From assembly GCF_902506425.1 (NCBI RefSeq), contig NZ_LR732469.1, forward strand, positions 62,001-126,000: 64,000 nucleotides of DNA, given 5' to 3'. The position numbers and the translations under genes are program-made. Under the pieces are notes generated by a model that worked only from the letters and a program-made list of their open reading frames with translations, had not been told where the DNA came from and made no database searches. Shown here piece after piece: positions 3,789 through 64,000 of the stretch. Source of the DNA: Novosphingobium sp. 9U. Its GTDB lineage: Bacteria; Pseudomonadota; Alphaproteobacteria; Sphingomonadales; Sphingomonadaceae. Positions within the stretch are counted from its first letter, which is position 1. Every line of letters begins with the position of its first letter.

Positions 3789-5531
3789 TCAGAAGCTGTA
3801 ACGCATGCCAACAAGGGCAGAGGCGGTCCAGATGTCGTCGAGCGGTTCCGGTTGCAACGTGCCGTCGATGCCCACTGCCGCCGTGGCGCGCAGGCGGGCG
3901 GTGAGCAGGCGGTAGTAGCTCGCCGAAGCGCCGACGTTGGTGATGTCGTCCAGCAGCAAGTCGTCGCTCTTCAGCCACTGCGCATAGCCGTTGGTGGACC
4001 AGCCGGATTGCGGATCGATGCGGCCGCTGAGGAACGCGGCGAGCCAGTAATTCTGGTCCACTACGCCGTTCGCCGATGCGAGCACAGTGCCGCGTGCCGC
4101 CAGGAACTTGCGCCGATCATAGCCCGCGCCGATGCCGGCATCGAGCCCGCCCATCTTGAGCGTGTAGCTCGCCGCCACGCCGCGGGCGCGGAAGGTTGCC
4201 GAGCGGATCGAGCCGAGCGCCCCTGCCAGGCAGCCGTTGCCGCTGAGTGTGGAAGCACAGCCGCGCAGCTCGCCCGAGATGGGATCGCGCACCGCTTCGA
4301 AATCTTCGGGCAGGCCGTCGAGCAGGCGCGTGACCTGGCCGCCAAATCCGGCTACGTTGTCGTAAACCATGACGTTCAGCGCGCTGCGGTCGTTGGGCGC
4401 GTAGGTCAGCGTACCGTTGAAGCTGGTCGAGCCATAGCGGCGGCCGACATGCGCGGTCAGTGAGGTGCGGCGACTCGGACGCCACATCACTCCGACATCC
4501 CAGATCAGGCCGTCGACGTCGTAGGCGATCTGGCGCGGTGCGCTGTCGTCGGTAACGTAGCGTCCATTGCGCACCAGCGGCGCGCCATTGGGCCCACGCA
4601 CCGCGTCGCGGCTGGAGATCTCGACATCCTCGTAGCCGAGTGCGCCGGTGACCTGGAGGTCGCGGTTGATCGGTACCGTGACGATGCCGCGCGCCTGCAT
4701 GTCGCGCACGCGCTGGTCGAGGTTGGAGACATCTTCCTGGTAGAAACTGCCCGCCGCGCCCAGGCCGACCGGCAGCACCGTGCCGGGGGCCACCATCGCG
4801 GACAGATCGGCGATCTGCACGACGCTCTCGTCGAACACGTCGAACGAGCCGAGACCCAGGTCCTCGCCGTTGAAGTCGAAGTTGTTGTCCTGGTCGACCT
4901 TGGTGTAGCCGGCCCGGTAGTTGGCCGAGAGCGCGACATCGCCCGCGCGCGTCGCGAAAGAAGGGCCGGCATAGACCGAGTAGATCTTGGTGCTGCCATC
5001 GTTGCCGATGCCGCTGCTGCCAAAGCCGACGCCGCCGCGATCGCCGCTCGCCCGAGTGGCCAGCGCGCCGCCCTCGACCGTCAGGCCACGCGCGATGGTG
5101 GTGTAGCCGTTGACGAGGCCGCTGATGGTGTCGCCGTCGCCGGCGCGCTTGCCCCAGCCGAAGTGGTGCTCGTAGCGCACGGACGCTGCCAGCGCATTGT
5201 TGCGGCCGGAGATCGAGGCGTCGACGCCCGCCGCGACCTGAGTGTAGGTCAGCACTTCGTTGCCGGGCGACAGCTCGGCATTCACGATCTGGTTGACCTC
5301 GGCATAGGGGATCACGACCACCTGCTTGCCGCCACCGCCGCGGCCATTGCGGCCTGAACGCGTGGGCTTGCCGGCCTCGGGCGTGTCGCTCGGGGCATCG
5401 GCGCCCGGACCCTCGCTGACGTTGCCATAGCCGATCGACTGCGCCTGCGCGCCAGATGATAGCGCAAGGGCAGGCAGCGCGAGCGCCACCAGCGACGCGG
5501 TCGCCAGGAAGGTGGGGGGCATGATAGTCAT
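3789..5531 (-). CDS. XrtA/PEP-CTERM-associated outer-membrane beta-barrel protein
   Basis: 580 residues. A signal peptide (hydrophobic LVALALPALALSSGAQAQ, likely cleavage after AQA) is followed by a low-complexity Gly/Arg/Asn-rich stretch at about residues 55-70. The rest is a long series of alternating amphipathic strands ending in ALVGMRYSF, a C-terminal Phe typical of outer-membrane barrels. The context and architecture match TIGR03016, the outer-membrane protein paired with the ATPase and tyrosine kinase of exosortase loci. Two cysteines near residues 420-430 could form a disulfide in an extracellular loop. ATG 5531 overlaps the kinase stop as ATGA. The family has no proven biochemical function; a porin-like role in polysaccharide secretion is inferred. 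Confidence 0.8.
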   Translation of the reverse strand: MTIMPPTFLATASLVALALPALALSSGAQAQSIGYGNVSEGPGADAPSDTPEAGKPTRSGRNGRGGGGKQVVVIPYAEVNQIVNAELSPGNEVLTYTQVAAGVDASISGRNNALAASVRYEHHFGWGKRAGDGDTISGLVNGYTTIARGLTVEGGALATRASGDRGGVGFGSSGIGNDGSTKIYSVYAGPSFATRAGDVALSANYRAGYTKVDQDNNFDFNGEDLGLGSFDVFDESVVQIADLSAMVAPGTVLPVGLGAAGSFYQEDVSNLDQRVRDMQARGIVTVPINRDLQVTGALGYEDVEISSRDAVRGPNGAPLVRNGRYVTDDSAPRQIAYDVDGLIWDVGVMWRPSRRTSLTAHVGRRYGSTSFNGTLTYAPNDRSALNVMVYDNVAGFGGQVTRLLDGLPEDFEAVRDPISGELRGCASTLSGNGCLAGALGSIRSATFRARGVAASYTLKMGGLDAGIGAGYDRRKFLAARGTVLASANGVVDQNYWLAAFLSGRIDPQSGWSTNGYAQWLKSDDLLLDDITNVGASASYYRLLTARLRATAAVGIDGTLQPEPLDDIWTASALVGMRYSF

Positions 5532-6607
5532 TCCCTGTATCCGTAATAGGTGCCGAAGCTACGGCCGCTGGGGCTGAACTGCGCGGCGTTGAGCAGCAGC
5601 TGGATGTTCGGGCACGAGGACAGCAGTGAGACCGCGTCTTCCAGCGCGCCCTGTCCGGTGCTGTCGGCGCGCACGATCACCACCGCCTGGCCGACGTACT
5701 TGGCAAGCTCTGCCGCCGGCGAGGCCGCGAGCGCGGGCGGCGAATCGAAGATCACCATGCGGTTGGGAGCGCCGTGCGTCAGCCGCTCCAGCACCTTTTC
5801 GGTACGGGCGCTGGACAAGTATTCGCTGTCGTTGGTGGTGGTGTCGCCGGCAGGCAGGACCCACAGCCCGGGAATGTCGGTGGCGAGCACGAAATTGGCG
5901 ACGTCCGCCGTCTCGTCCATCAGCGCGTCCATCAAGCCCGGTCCACCTGGCAGGCCGAGTGCGGAGAGGATCGACGGCTTGGCGAAATCGGCATCGACCA
6001 GCAGGACGTCGCTGTCCTTCTCGGCCGCGATCGACAGCGCCAGGTTGGCGGCGCAGTAGGTCTTGCCCTCGCCCGGATGGGGAGAGCTGATCAGCACGCG
6101 CTGCGCCTTCGTACCGGCCTTCTGGCGGCGCAGTTCGCTGGCCTGCACCATCAGCTGGCGCTTGACGATGCGGAACTCCTCGAGGAGCGCGGTAACCGAG
6201 CCCTCGGGCACGATCAGCCCGCTCTCGCGCAAGTGCTCGCGATCGATGGCGTGGCGCTCGCCAGAGAAGATGGCGGGGGCGGCGGGCGGTTCTGCCGCAA
6301 CCTCGCGTTCCCGTTCCCCGTTCGGGTCGAGCGAAGTCGAGACACGGGGTTCCGGCGCAAACGTGTCTCGACTCCGTTCGACACGAACGGGAGTGGGATC
6401 AATGGCTTTTGCAGCCGCCGGAGTGGGTGCCTCCGCCACCTTCTTCGCCCGCAACACCGGCTCGCGCTTGGGAGGCAATGCCTCAGGCCGCGGAGCCGCC
6501 ATGTAGCGCTTGAAGTCGAACCGCTCGGCCGCGCGCTCGATCAGCGAGTCGCGCGCAGGCTCGGCCTTGTCGCGCAGCGGGAGGGGGATCTTGCTCTGGT
6601 CGGTCAT
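5528..6607 (-). CDS. XrtA-associated tyrosine autokinase (Wzc/CpsD-like)
   Basis: 359 residues, TIGR03018-like. It has Walker A (ISSPHPGEGKT, about 173-183), Walker A-prime (VLLVDADF, about 201-208), a further Asp motif (VIFDSPPAL) and a C-terminal tyrosine cluster GTYYGYRE as the likely autophosphorylation site. Such BY-kinases control polymer length and export with the chain-length protein encoded just upstream (gap 10 bases). Residues 73-97, in the poorly conserved N-terminal linker, are encoded by a palindromic repeat also found in murB (see the repeat at 6317-6391). Because the insert lies before the kinase core and keeps the frame, the protein should still be functional. Confidence 0.88.
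   Translation of the reverse strand: MTDQSKIPLPLRDKAEPARDSLIERAAERFDFKRYMAAPRPEALPPKREPVLRAKKVAEAPTPAAAKAIDPTPVRVERSRDTFAPEPRVSTSLDPNGEREREVAAEPPAAPAIFSGERHAIDREHLRESGLIVPEGSVTALLEEFRIVKRQLMVQASELRRQKAGTKAQRVLISSPHPGEGKTYCAANLALSIAAEKDSDVLLVDADFAKPSILSALGLPGGPGLMDALMDETADVANFVLATDIPGLWVLPAGDTTTNDSEYLSSARTEKVLERLTHGAPNRMVIFDSPPALAASPAAELAKYVGQAVVIVRADSTGQGALEDAVSLLSSCPNIQLLLNAAQFSPSGRSFGTYYGYRE
6317..6391 (-). repeat. Protein-coding palindromic element, copy 1 (inside tyrosine autokinase)
   Basis: A 75-base near-perfect inverted repeat. The left arm is 6318-6346 and the right arm is 6362-6390, with a 15-base centre. The arms begin CCGTTCGGGTCGAGCGAAGT and end GACACGAACGG. Read on the minus strand it encodes VRVERSRDT...RVSTSLDPNG. 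The same 73-base core and the same peptide pattern occur at 62933-63005 inside murB. The length and in-frame position resemble the Rickettsia palindromic element concept; identity of the element family is inferred. Confidence 0.85.
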
Positions 6608-35999: not shown

Positions 36000-36069
36000 G
36001 TGGACGGAGCTGGCATGCTTCGACAAGCTCAGCACGGGCGCTGTCTGGCTGAGCGCGCTGATTTCTGAA

Positions 36070-62061: not shown

Positions 62062-63024
62062 TCACTTCGTACCCACCCTTTGTATCTCCCACTCGAGCTC
62101 CACGCCCGAGTTGTCCTTCACGCGCCGGCGCACTTCCTCGCCCAGCGCCTCGATCTCGGCGCTGGTCGCGGTGCCGGTGTTGATGAGGAAATTGGTATGC
62201 TTCTCGCTGACCTGCGCGCCGCCGAGGCTCAGCCCGCGACAGCCCGCACGATCGACCAGCTCCCAAGCCTTCTCACCGGGCGGGTTCTTGAAGGTCGAAC
62301 CACCCGTTTTGGAGCGCAGCGGCTGCGAGGCCTCGCGGCTGGCGGAGATGCGGTCCATCTCGGCCTGGATCGCGGCCGGCTCACCGGGGCGACCCTGGAA
62401 CCGCGCGGCGACGACGATCGCACCTTCTGGAAGCTCGGAATGCCGGTAGGTGTAATGCAGGTTGTGGTTGGCTAGCGTGGCCAGCTCGCCCGAGCGCAAG
62501 ACGACATCGCAGTCGACGAGGATGTCCTTGACCTCGCCGCCATAAGCGCCGCCGTTCATCCGCACGAACCCGCCGACGGTGCCGGGGATCGAGCGGAGGA
62601 ACTCGACACCAGCGATGCCGGCATCGCGTGCGGTGGAAGAGACCAGGATGCCCGAGGCCCCGCCGCCGCACTCCAGCGTGACGTCGTCGAGCCGGCGCAC
62701 TTGCGCAAAGGCCTTGCCAAGCCGCACCACCACGCCCGGAACTCCGCCGTCGCGCACGATCATGTTGGAGCCGAGGCCAAGTGCCATGACCGGCACCGCC
62801 GGGTCGAGCCCGCGCAGGAACGCCTGCAGATCGGCCAAGTCTTTTGGCTCGAACAGCCACTCGGCAACGCCGCCCGACTTGAACCAGACGAGCGGGGCCA
62901 GTGGCGCCTCAGGAGTAAGCTTTCCCCTCACCCCGTTCGTGTCGAGCGAAGTCGAGACACGCTGGCCTAGCGCTGCCGTGTCTCGACTGCGCTCGACACG
63001 AACGGAGGTGGGCTCCTGGCCCAT
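62062..63024 (-). CDS. murB: UDP-N-acetylenolpyruvoylglucosamine reductase
   Basis: 320 residues. FAD-binding ALGLGSNMIVRDGGVPGVVVRLG, SIPGTVGGFVRMNGGAYGGEVKDILV and the catalytic-serine region KTGGSTFKNPPGEKAWELVDRAGCRGLSLGGAQVSEKHTNFLIN are intact. It reduces enolpyruvyl-UDP-GlcNAc to UDP-MurNAc. ATG 63024 overlaps the murC stop as ATGA and fixes the start. Residues 7-31 (VRVERSRDT...RVSTSLDTNG) are encoded by the same palindromic element seen in the tyrosine autokinase gene and form an N-terminal extension before the normal MurB core (PLVWFKSGGVAEW). Confidence 0.95.
   Translation of the reverse strand: MGQEPTSVRVERSRDTAALGQRVSTSLDTNGVRGKLTPEAPLAPLVWFKSGGVAEWLFEPKDLADLQAFLRGLDPAVPVMALGLGSNMIVRDGGVPGVVVRLGKAFAQVRRLDDVTLECGGGASGILVSSTARDAGIAGVEFLRSIPGTVGGFVRMNGGAYGGEVKDILVDCDVVLRSGELATLANHNLHYTYRHSELPEGAIVVAARFQGRPGEPAAIQAEMDRISASREASQPLRSKTGGSTFKNPPGEKAWELVDRAGCRGLSLGGAQVSEKHTNFLINTGTATSAEIEALGEEVRRRVKDNSGVELEWEIQRVGTK
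62933..63005 (-). repeat. Protein-coding palindromic element, copy 2 (inside murB)
   Basis: 73 bases with arms CCGTTCGTGTCGAGCGAAGT... and ...CTCGACACGAACGG around a 15-base centre. It has the same length, arm sequence and reading frame as the copy at 6318-6390. It lies only 19 bases after the murB start codon. Confidence 0.85.
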
Positions 63025-64000
63025 CAGGCGGTGACCCGCTCGCCGATTGCGCTCGCGAGCCCGGCGGCCCACTTGGTGATGTCGCCGGCGCCCAGGCATA
63101 CGACCATGTCGCCCGGCCGCGCCGTGCGCGCCAAGGCCTCAGCCAAGTCATCGGCGCCGCTCACGACATGCGCATCGCGATGTCCGCGCGCCTTTAGGCC
63201 AGCCACCAGCGTTTCCGCATCGACACCGTCGATCGGCGCCTCACCCGCAGCATAGACCGGCGTCACGTAGACGGCGTCGGCATCGTTGAAGGCGGTCTGG
63301 AACTCCTCCATCAGGTCGCGCAGGCGGGTGAACCGGTGCGGCTGCACGACCGCGAGCACCCTGCCGCGCACACCCTCGCGCGCGGCCGCGAGCACGGCGC
63401 GGATCTCGACCGGATGATGGCCGTAGTCGTCGATCACGGTCACGCCGTTGACCTCGCCCACCTTGGTGAAGCGTCGCTTGACCCCTCCGAAGCCGGCGAA
63501 GCCGCCGCGTACGATCTCATCGTCGCAACCCATCTCGATGGCGACGGCGATGGCGGCCAGCGCGTTCTGGACGTTGTGACGGCCGGGCATCGGCAGTTCG
63601 ATGCCTTCGATCCGGCGCTGCTCGCCATCGCGCTCGCGCACCACGACGTCGAAGCGGTTGCCGCCCGGCACCGGCGTCACCGCCTCGCCGCGCACATCCG
63701 CCTGCGCGGAGAAACCGTAGGTGATCACCCGCCGATCACGCACGCGAGAGATCACAGCTTGCACTTCGGGGTGGTCGATGCACAGCACCGCCGCGCCGTA
63801 GAACGGCACGTTCTCGATGAACTCGACGAAGCACTCCTTGACCTTGTCGAAGCTGCCGTAGTGTTCGAGGTGCTCGGGATCGATGTTGGTGACGACCGCG
63901 ATGGTGCCGTCCAGCCGCAGGAACGAGCCGTCGCTCTCGTCCGCCTCGACCACCATCCAGTCGCTGGCGCCCAGGCGCGCGTTGGAACCGTAGGAGTTGA
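63024..64000 (-). CDS. murC: UDP-N-acetylmuramate--L-alanine ligase, N-terminus outside window
   Basis: About 325 C-terminal residues are visible; the frame runs on past 64000. [37 protein letters not shown] is the Mur-ligase central domain, [20 protein letters not shown] the hinge before the C-terminal domain, and [21 protein letters not shown] and [13 protein letters not shown] are typical of MurC. It adds L-alanine to UDP-MurNAc. The stop overlaps the murB ATG. Confidence 0.96.

Follow-up and report, generated by a model that had tools for sequence, protein, structure and literature searches.

Two genes of the window, i.e. the whole 64,000-nucleotide stretch of the Novosphingobium sp. 9U genome analysed here, carry a copy of the same palindromic element in frame. 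The first gene (5528..6607, minus strand) encodes a tyrosine autokinase-like P-loop protein of 359 aa, assigned by family matches and an alignment of homologues. It scores 187.9 bits against the NCBIfam model of XrtA-associated tyrosine autokinases (cut-off 230.65) and 23.7 bits against Pfam AAA_31 (cut-off 27), and thus stays below the cut-off in both cases. The element, a head-to-head REP dimer recognised by palindrome scan, fold and covariance model, occupies 6317..6391 (no strand assigned) in the Pro/Ala-rich linker of this protein. The second copy (62933..63005, likewise without strand; palindrome scan and covariance model) reads SVRVERSRDTAALGQRVSTSLDTNG and lies in murB (62062..63024, minus strand), which encodes 320 aa with matches over the cut-off to Pfam FAD_binding_4 and MurB_C. 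The adjacent 3' part of murC (63024..64000, minus strand) runs off the window and was assigned from its C-terminal motif and the gene order, independently of any family search. Since the murC stop codon overlaps the murB ATG (TGATG), the element is located downstream of the coupled murB start.

The initial annotation had described a near-palindrome inserted in frame into the kinase gene ahead of the Walker A core, and all of this is borne out. The best ungapped palindrome at the site spans 75 bp, with 32-nt arms (27 positions paired) and an 11-nt spacer; the murB copy measures 73 bp, with 28 of 31 arm positions paired. Palindrome scores of the two copies are 17 and 22, compared to 12 for the next best 2-kb block of the window and to 8, 9 and 12 for three single-base shuffles of its first 32 kb. 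The predicted RNA fold of the kinase copy reaches a z-score of −5.1, equalled or surpassed by none of 200 shuffles. With up to three mismatches, the arm core GTCGAGCGNAGTCGAGA is found six times in the window, four of these being the arms of the two copies; 1.79 matches are expected on average and none of 100 shuffles reaches six. The covariance model matches 6317–6391 on both strands, this copy having belonged to its training set, and the sole Rfam match at gathering thresholds in the whole window is a tRNA.

Read on the minus strand, the kinase copy gives PVRVERSRDTFAPEPRVSTSLDPNG, which corresponds to residues 73–97 of the protein, and the tyrosine-kinase domain match starts at residue 131 (the Walker A motif was placed by eye). 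Both copies share the reading VRVERSRDT-x-VSTSLD.NG in their host proteins. The murB copy had been reported in the same orientation and reading frame; the frame (VRVERSRDT) is indeed the same, while "same orientation" says little because the element is a near-palindrome. Among the 30 best homologues of the kinase, 25 have no recognisable element peptide, and their Pro/Ala-rich linkers vary in length. The element peptide occurs in the other five, in two of them in degenerate form (P0004, P0005), and P0018 shows a doubtful trace. In the predicted kinase structure, confidence in 10-residue blocks from 61 to 110 is 42, 41, 43, 53 and 50; in MurB it is low over residues 1–55, i.e. beyond the element into conserved sequence. 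Both structure models have low overall quality (mean pLDDT 64 and 69; shallow alignments of 35 and 27 rows).

Architecture and families of the repeat

An alignment of 16 copies resolves the element into a pair of inverted 29-nt arms, separated by a spacer that varies but mostly measures 13 nt. Each arm is a unit with an unpaired CGTT tag, a stem of 5–6 bp and the core GAGCGNAGTCGA, and the two units face each other head to head. In family A, to which the window copies belong, the stem is CGTGTC/GACAC with the 6-nt apex CGAAGT; the four bases ahead of it read CGTT in 189 of 192 arms, and CGTC, CGCC and TGTT in one arm each. The bases ahead of the stem in family B are mostly CCGCT. A single family B unit is also present in the window itself, at 36020–36030 on the minus strand (unit approximately 36014–36036), and reads CGTGCT GAGCTTGTCGA AGCATG.

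The 12-nt core GAGC-N3-GTCGA was found at 250 sites in the collected loci, 218 of which have at least five of six flanking positions paired, in comparison to 0.9 % of random sites. As 205 of these 218 share the stem CGTGTC, they represent one family and are not independent. Of the 38 other sites with the 12-nt core, 13 are paired. A related 11-nt core (N2) is paired at 50 of 125 sites with 15 different left stems, including CATCCT/AGGATG, CATGCT/AGCATG, CACCCT/AGGGTG and GGTGGT/ACCACC. These proportions describe the sample and not the genomes, as the loci were mostly chosen for family A. A single arm has an inconspicuous predicted energy (z −0.66, 49 of 200 shuffles as good), yet the stems of the different families differ and still pair. 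Because pairing persists across different stem sequences, each arm can be assigned to a REP-like hairpin superfamily, and the long palindrome consists of two such units placed head to head. The consensus arm is free of TAA, TAG and TGA on either strand, and four of the 19 copies in the Novosphingobium sp. 9U genome are open in all six frames.

Copy number, distribution and placement

The covariance model, built from 16 copies, gives 38 hits on both strands of the 4.64-Mb genome, which correspond to 19 full copies; as the 16 match by construction, three of them are new. All 19 are inverted pairs, accompanied by one collapsed copy and a few single one-mismatch arms elsewhere. With one mismatch allowed, the arm pattern is present in 88 of 195 genomes of the genus, with counts from none to 96 plus 83 in the genome with the most arms in the genus list (G028, at least 75 copies, 150 candidates scored); a reversed control pattern gave no match among the genus rows listed. 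In a sample of the host's taxonomic family, the pattern occurs in 88 of 298 genomes, representing 41 of 96 genera, and none of 24 genomes from other families of the order contains the element. It was further detected in nine of 72,556 plasmid records, all from Sphingobium and 0.89–1.28 Mb in size, and a phage collection yielded no match.

Presence and absence differ between close relatives. The sister species N. chloroacetimidivorans (G069, species assignment inferred) contains at least 23 arms on one strand. Fourteen distinct places among those listed were examined, of which four are orthologous to copies of Novosphingobium sp. 9U; at two others (L345, L346) the counterpart in the latter lacks the element. 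Target-site boundaries or duplications were not readable at the intergenic empty site or at the RNase R site described below, where the flanks have diverged. The same genome encodes a small gene (L343, 2015–2416) with family A arms at both ends and, in the called frame, the element peptide at its N- and C-terminus.

The genome-wide covariance search and in-gene count proposed in the initial annotation place three of the 19 copies inside genes, all in frame and outside recognised domains: those in the kinase, in MurB and in the E2 component of a 2-oxoacid dehydrogenase. The remaining 16 are intergenic (13 between codirectional, two between divergent and one between convergent genes), many of them 20–50 bp from both neighbours. 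In G028, 61 of 62 element pairs (60 regions) are intergenic, with 41 in convergent, 20 in codirectional and none in divergent arrangement, and the sole in-gene pair forms the C-terminal extension of a gene with weak family matches. Selection against landing in genes is hence strong, since 61 of 62 pairs avoid genes although 89 % of the bases in these regions are coding. Genes were called by a codon-usage script instead of a standard predictor; it chose a later start for the N. chloroacetimidivorans murB and thus put that copy outside the gene, so that the intergenic counts may miss N-terminal cases. With a 29-nt unit that forms 19 full dimers in one genome and is mostly extragenic there as well as in G028, the element has the properties of a REP, i.e. 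a 20–40-bp unit in many copies outside genes.

How the element would be moved is a separate question. REPINs are inverted doublets of REP units with variable copy number, and the element shares both of these features. It could therefore be a REPIN moved by a RAYT transposase that was lost here or is unlinked, which would be compatible with the non-autonomous REP family favoured below and would fill its missing step. In line with this, RAYT-like genes occur in 11 of 47 element-rich and 16 of 148 other genomes (p 0.049), and any Y1_Tnp match in 22 of 47 and 40 of 148, respectively (p 0.019), both without correction for relatedness; G028 itself has a RAYT-like frame of 137 aa. The 27 RAYT-like genomes were picked by eye from the Y1_Tnp matches of the genus, which occur in 62 of 195 genomes. 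However, no Y1_Tnp match and no Y1 transposase was found in the Novosphingobium sp. 9U genome, 36 of the 47 element-rich genomes have no listed RAYT-like gene, and the GTAG tag is absent from the 192 element arms tallied. None of 20 RAYT loci of relatives is flanked by a family A arm (up to five mismatches, flanks up to approximately 2 kb), and the three loci scanned for repeats contain another palindrome of the GGGACTGTCCC type. Overall, mobilisation by a RAYT seems rather unlikely. In L321, L324 and L326, RAYT-like genes are flanked by AAATAGGGACTGTCCCTATTT-type palindromes, which constitute a separate repeat family.

Recurrence at the murC–murB junction and in other proteins

The murC–murB junction was compared in 81 loci, namely that of the window and the 80 best of 514 relatives. 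As the query was the MurB core devoid of the element, the sample was not chosen for the element. A palindrome of the superfamily is located at 17 of the 81 junctions, nine from family A, two from a sister palindrome (FVPSEVEG) and six from family B; at the other 64 no palindrome of these families scored, with possible family A remnants in L188 and L198 counted as none. The commonest junctions measure 23 or 26 bp and have a murB start that overlaps the murC stop. Six repeat-less loci have junctions of 214–337 bp, whose longest coupled frame resembles a small gene in all except L189; in the five others (L184, L186, L191, L231 and L252) this frame of 64–101 codons between murC and murB appears phasin-like by eye.

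From the coupled start, the frame runs through the repeat into MurB in 9/9 family A, 2/2 sister and 3/6 family B junctions. The other three family B junctions (L183, L195 and L214) have a coupled leader of 36, 36 and 47 codons, whose TGA overlaps a new murB ATG. With 14 loci in frame into MurB and three open leaders, the coupled frame is thus open through the repeat at 17 of 17 palindrome-bearing junctions. If translation started after the repeat, each independent event would have a chance of approximately one in three of being in frame. The number of such events is smaller than that of loci, given that family A requires at least six gains or losses on the murB tree (a quick tree with SH-aLRT support only), four of them forced by starred branches. 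At the three restarted junctions, the family B repeat supplies the AAGGATG that holds the new murB ATG, and coupling to murC seems to have been passed on to this start. Their similar flanks possibly reflect one ancestral event, though the tree counts three changes.

The repeat could alternatively lie upstream of the true murB start and merely be annotated as coding, as Di Nocera et al. (PMC3733652) suspect for many N-terminal REPs, which according to their main text are often extragenic. A GTG directly follows the repeat in the window's murB and in L258 and L259, and six further in-frame loci have a GTG or TTG later within 25 codons, so that a later start is compatible with the codons in nine of 14 loci. 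In contrast, the repeat is directly followed by GTC or GTT in L182, L187, L190, L241 and L245, and five of the 14 in-frame loci (L182, L245, L238, L251 and L255) lack any ATG, GTG or TTG over the next 25 codons. Together with the 17 open frames, this lack of a usual start codon suggests that at least some murB copies are translated. The explanation is moreover inapplicable to the kinase, E2, RNase R and IleS, because the insert is internal there, and an annotation artefact is accordingly very unlikely.

In the E2 acyltransferase of Novosphingobium sp. 9U, the element covers residues from approximately 131 to 155 between the lipoyl (5–77) and E3-binding (167–200) Pfam domains and is read in another frame (PFVSSEVET). 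Among 11 E2 rows from ten genomes (rows of G061 and G097 are missing), arms are located in the linkers of G000, G011 and G009, the latter with two in tandem, and in degenerate form in G075; seven rows lack arms. In N. chloroacetimidivorans, the kinase and MurB copies are likewise present, along with additional ones in RNase R and IleS. Its RNase R scores over the superfamily cut-off and just under that of the equivalog (593.2 vs. 597.85), with a match that is split around the insert. The RNase R of Novosphingobium sp. 9U corresponds to residues 1–397 and 432–800 with three bases between them, and hence lacks those 34 residues. In five other genomes, this site harbors short loops (G073, G097, G009 and G061) or a different repeat-like insert (G011). 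The IleS of N. chloroacetimidivorans (791 bits, NCBIfam cut-off 621.4) contains two arms in frame, in outward order and not as the usual dimer, and that of Novosphingobium sp. 9U contains none. A peptide search for further hosts gave 14 candidates, three of them among the matches listed; the one new protein in this listing is TruB of Sphingobium sp. B2D3A (P0242), with the element peptide inside (E 6.6, accepted on sequence). The element thus resides in frame in genes as unrelated as those for the kinase, MurB, E2, RNase R, IleS and, in a Sphingobium, TruB, with two reading frames used (VRVERSRDT and FVSSEVET).

Other peptides were seen at the same tolerant sites. HHPPAPSSEEEG and SPLKGRGLGEG..PLSPTLSP peptides occur in MurB of L253 and L254, RNase R of G011 (L357) and E2 of N. 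chloroacetimidivorans (L364), and are perhaps further palindrome families. In the MurB homologue P0173, an apparent second repeat (HPEPAEG) is, by eye, nested in frame within the element peptide.

Origin of the in-frame copies and comparison with known systems

We consider it likely that the element is a non-autonomous REP family which has largely been purged from genes, with occasional copies being tolerated and translated into a probably neutral peptide. According to this proposal, the dimer would spread through the genome and most genic insertions would be removed by selection. The few survivors would be those that keep the frame and fall into a disordered, inter-domain or loop site, such as the kinase linker, the MurB N-terminus, the linker between the lipoyl and E3-binding domains of E2, the length-variable loop of RNase R and a variable segment of IleS. 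Such a repeat would then be translated as a peptide of approximately 25 residues, and the longer protein would presumably be produced stably.

Conceivably, the segment could instead be domesticated, i.e. its peptide or RNA hairpin could be kept for a function such as tuning of the murC–murB coupling or an advantageous lengthening of linkers. The same murB position is occupied in several lineages and by palindromes of more than one family, and arms recur in the E2 linkers of G000, G009 and G011 as well as, degenerate, in G075. A further argument comes from the kinase copy. Between Novosphingobium sp. 9U and N. chloroacetimidivorans, the element differs at 3.0 of 54.0 nonsynonymous sites and at 4.0 of 21.0 synonymous ones; the corresponding values for the kinase domain are 20.0 of 534.3 and 76.0 of 185.7. 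This low synonymous divergence, albeit based on small numbers, is contrary to neutral drift of an old insertion and would speak for copy conversion or a constraint on the hairpin. On the other hand, most relatives manage without the insert (64 of 81 murB junctions, seven of 11 E2 rows, 25 of 30 kinases), the use of two reading frames is unlike a selected peptide, and recurrence at tolerant sites requires no function. Domestication is hence distinctly improbable. A related possibility, which we regard as doubtful, is that the murC–murB junction, the E2 linker and the RNase R loop are repeated capture sites, at which the hairpin tunes coupling and the disordered peptide is selected. If captured and used in this way, selfish repeats would continually supply sphingomonads with linker and leader sequence.

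We therefore do not favour a functional peptide and prefer a REP family that is tolerated in frame. The most useful new point is that in-frame copies recur at tolerant sites. Within a single genus, an essential gene has received members of one repeat superfamily more than once at the same position, with the site being empty in relatives. These entries are natural replicates for asking whether such insertions are tolerated or kept. As a practical warning, segments of approximately 25 residues like VRVERSRDT..VSTSLDTNG in sphingomonad proteins are derived from repeats and should not be taken for conserved domains.

Rickettsia palindromic elements had been named as the precedent, and a comparison by placement reveals the same principle of palindromes in frame in unrelated proteins. 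Yet nearly half of those in R. conorii reside in ORFs according to PMC10969869, whereas merely three of 19 copies in Novosphingobium sp. 9U and one of 62 pairs in G028 are found in genes. As genic landing is this exceptional, a REP dimer fits better than a Rickettsia-like element. Enterobacterial RU elements, as described in PMC2759123, are likewise small repeats with open reading frames that are fused to genes, but they are longer (103–168 bp) and belong to another lineage; this comparison is one of descriptions.

The closest relatives are the REPs of Di Nocera et al. 2013 (PMC3733652), whose main text distinguishes two super-families with intragenic members. A search of the accessible literature for the sequence of the element, or for Novosphingobium or Sphingomonas with this repeat, listed nothing on it, and the main text of PMC3733652 does not mention Novosphingobium. 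The initial annotation was thus right about a dispersed palindromic element in frame in unrelated proteins, and not about a class undescribed in sphingomonads: the same main text describes REPs with a CGTC tag from S. wittichii and S. chlorophenolicum, as well as intragenic REPs from S. alaskensis and E. litoralis, including tRNA synthetase and TruB genes, with TruB listed as REP- or RPE-bearing in other bacteria as well. It further cautions that copies at N-termini may stem from misannotation and considers flexible linkers as possible places of insertion. The CGTC-type REPs described there resemble the element as short hairpins that mostly form head-to-head dimers, are mostly intergenic with some genic members and have no dedicated transposase; the predominance of such dimers also applies to the 19 inverted pairs of Novosphingobium sp. 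9U. In contrast, the tag CGTC (also TGTC or CCTC) given for this super-family differs from the CGTT of family A (189 of 192 arms), and its AT-first stem and loop of 4–5 are unlike those of family A, whereas the ATCCT and CYTGT members of family B would fit better. Family A is hence outside the CGTC definition as stated in the main text, although the same sequence may be contained in the lists of that study. Taken together, the present data agree with the main text of PMC3733652 and add a non-CGTC family, repeated capture at a single junction and evidence for the translation of at least some murB copies.
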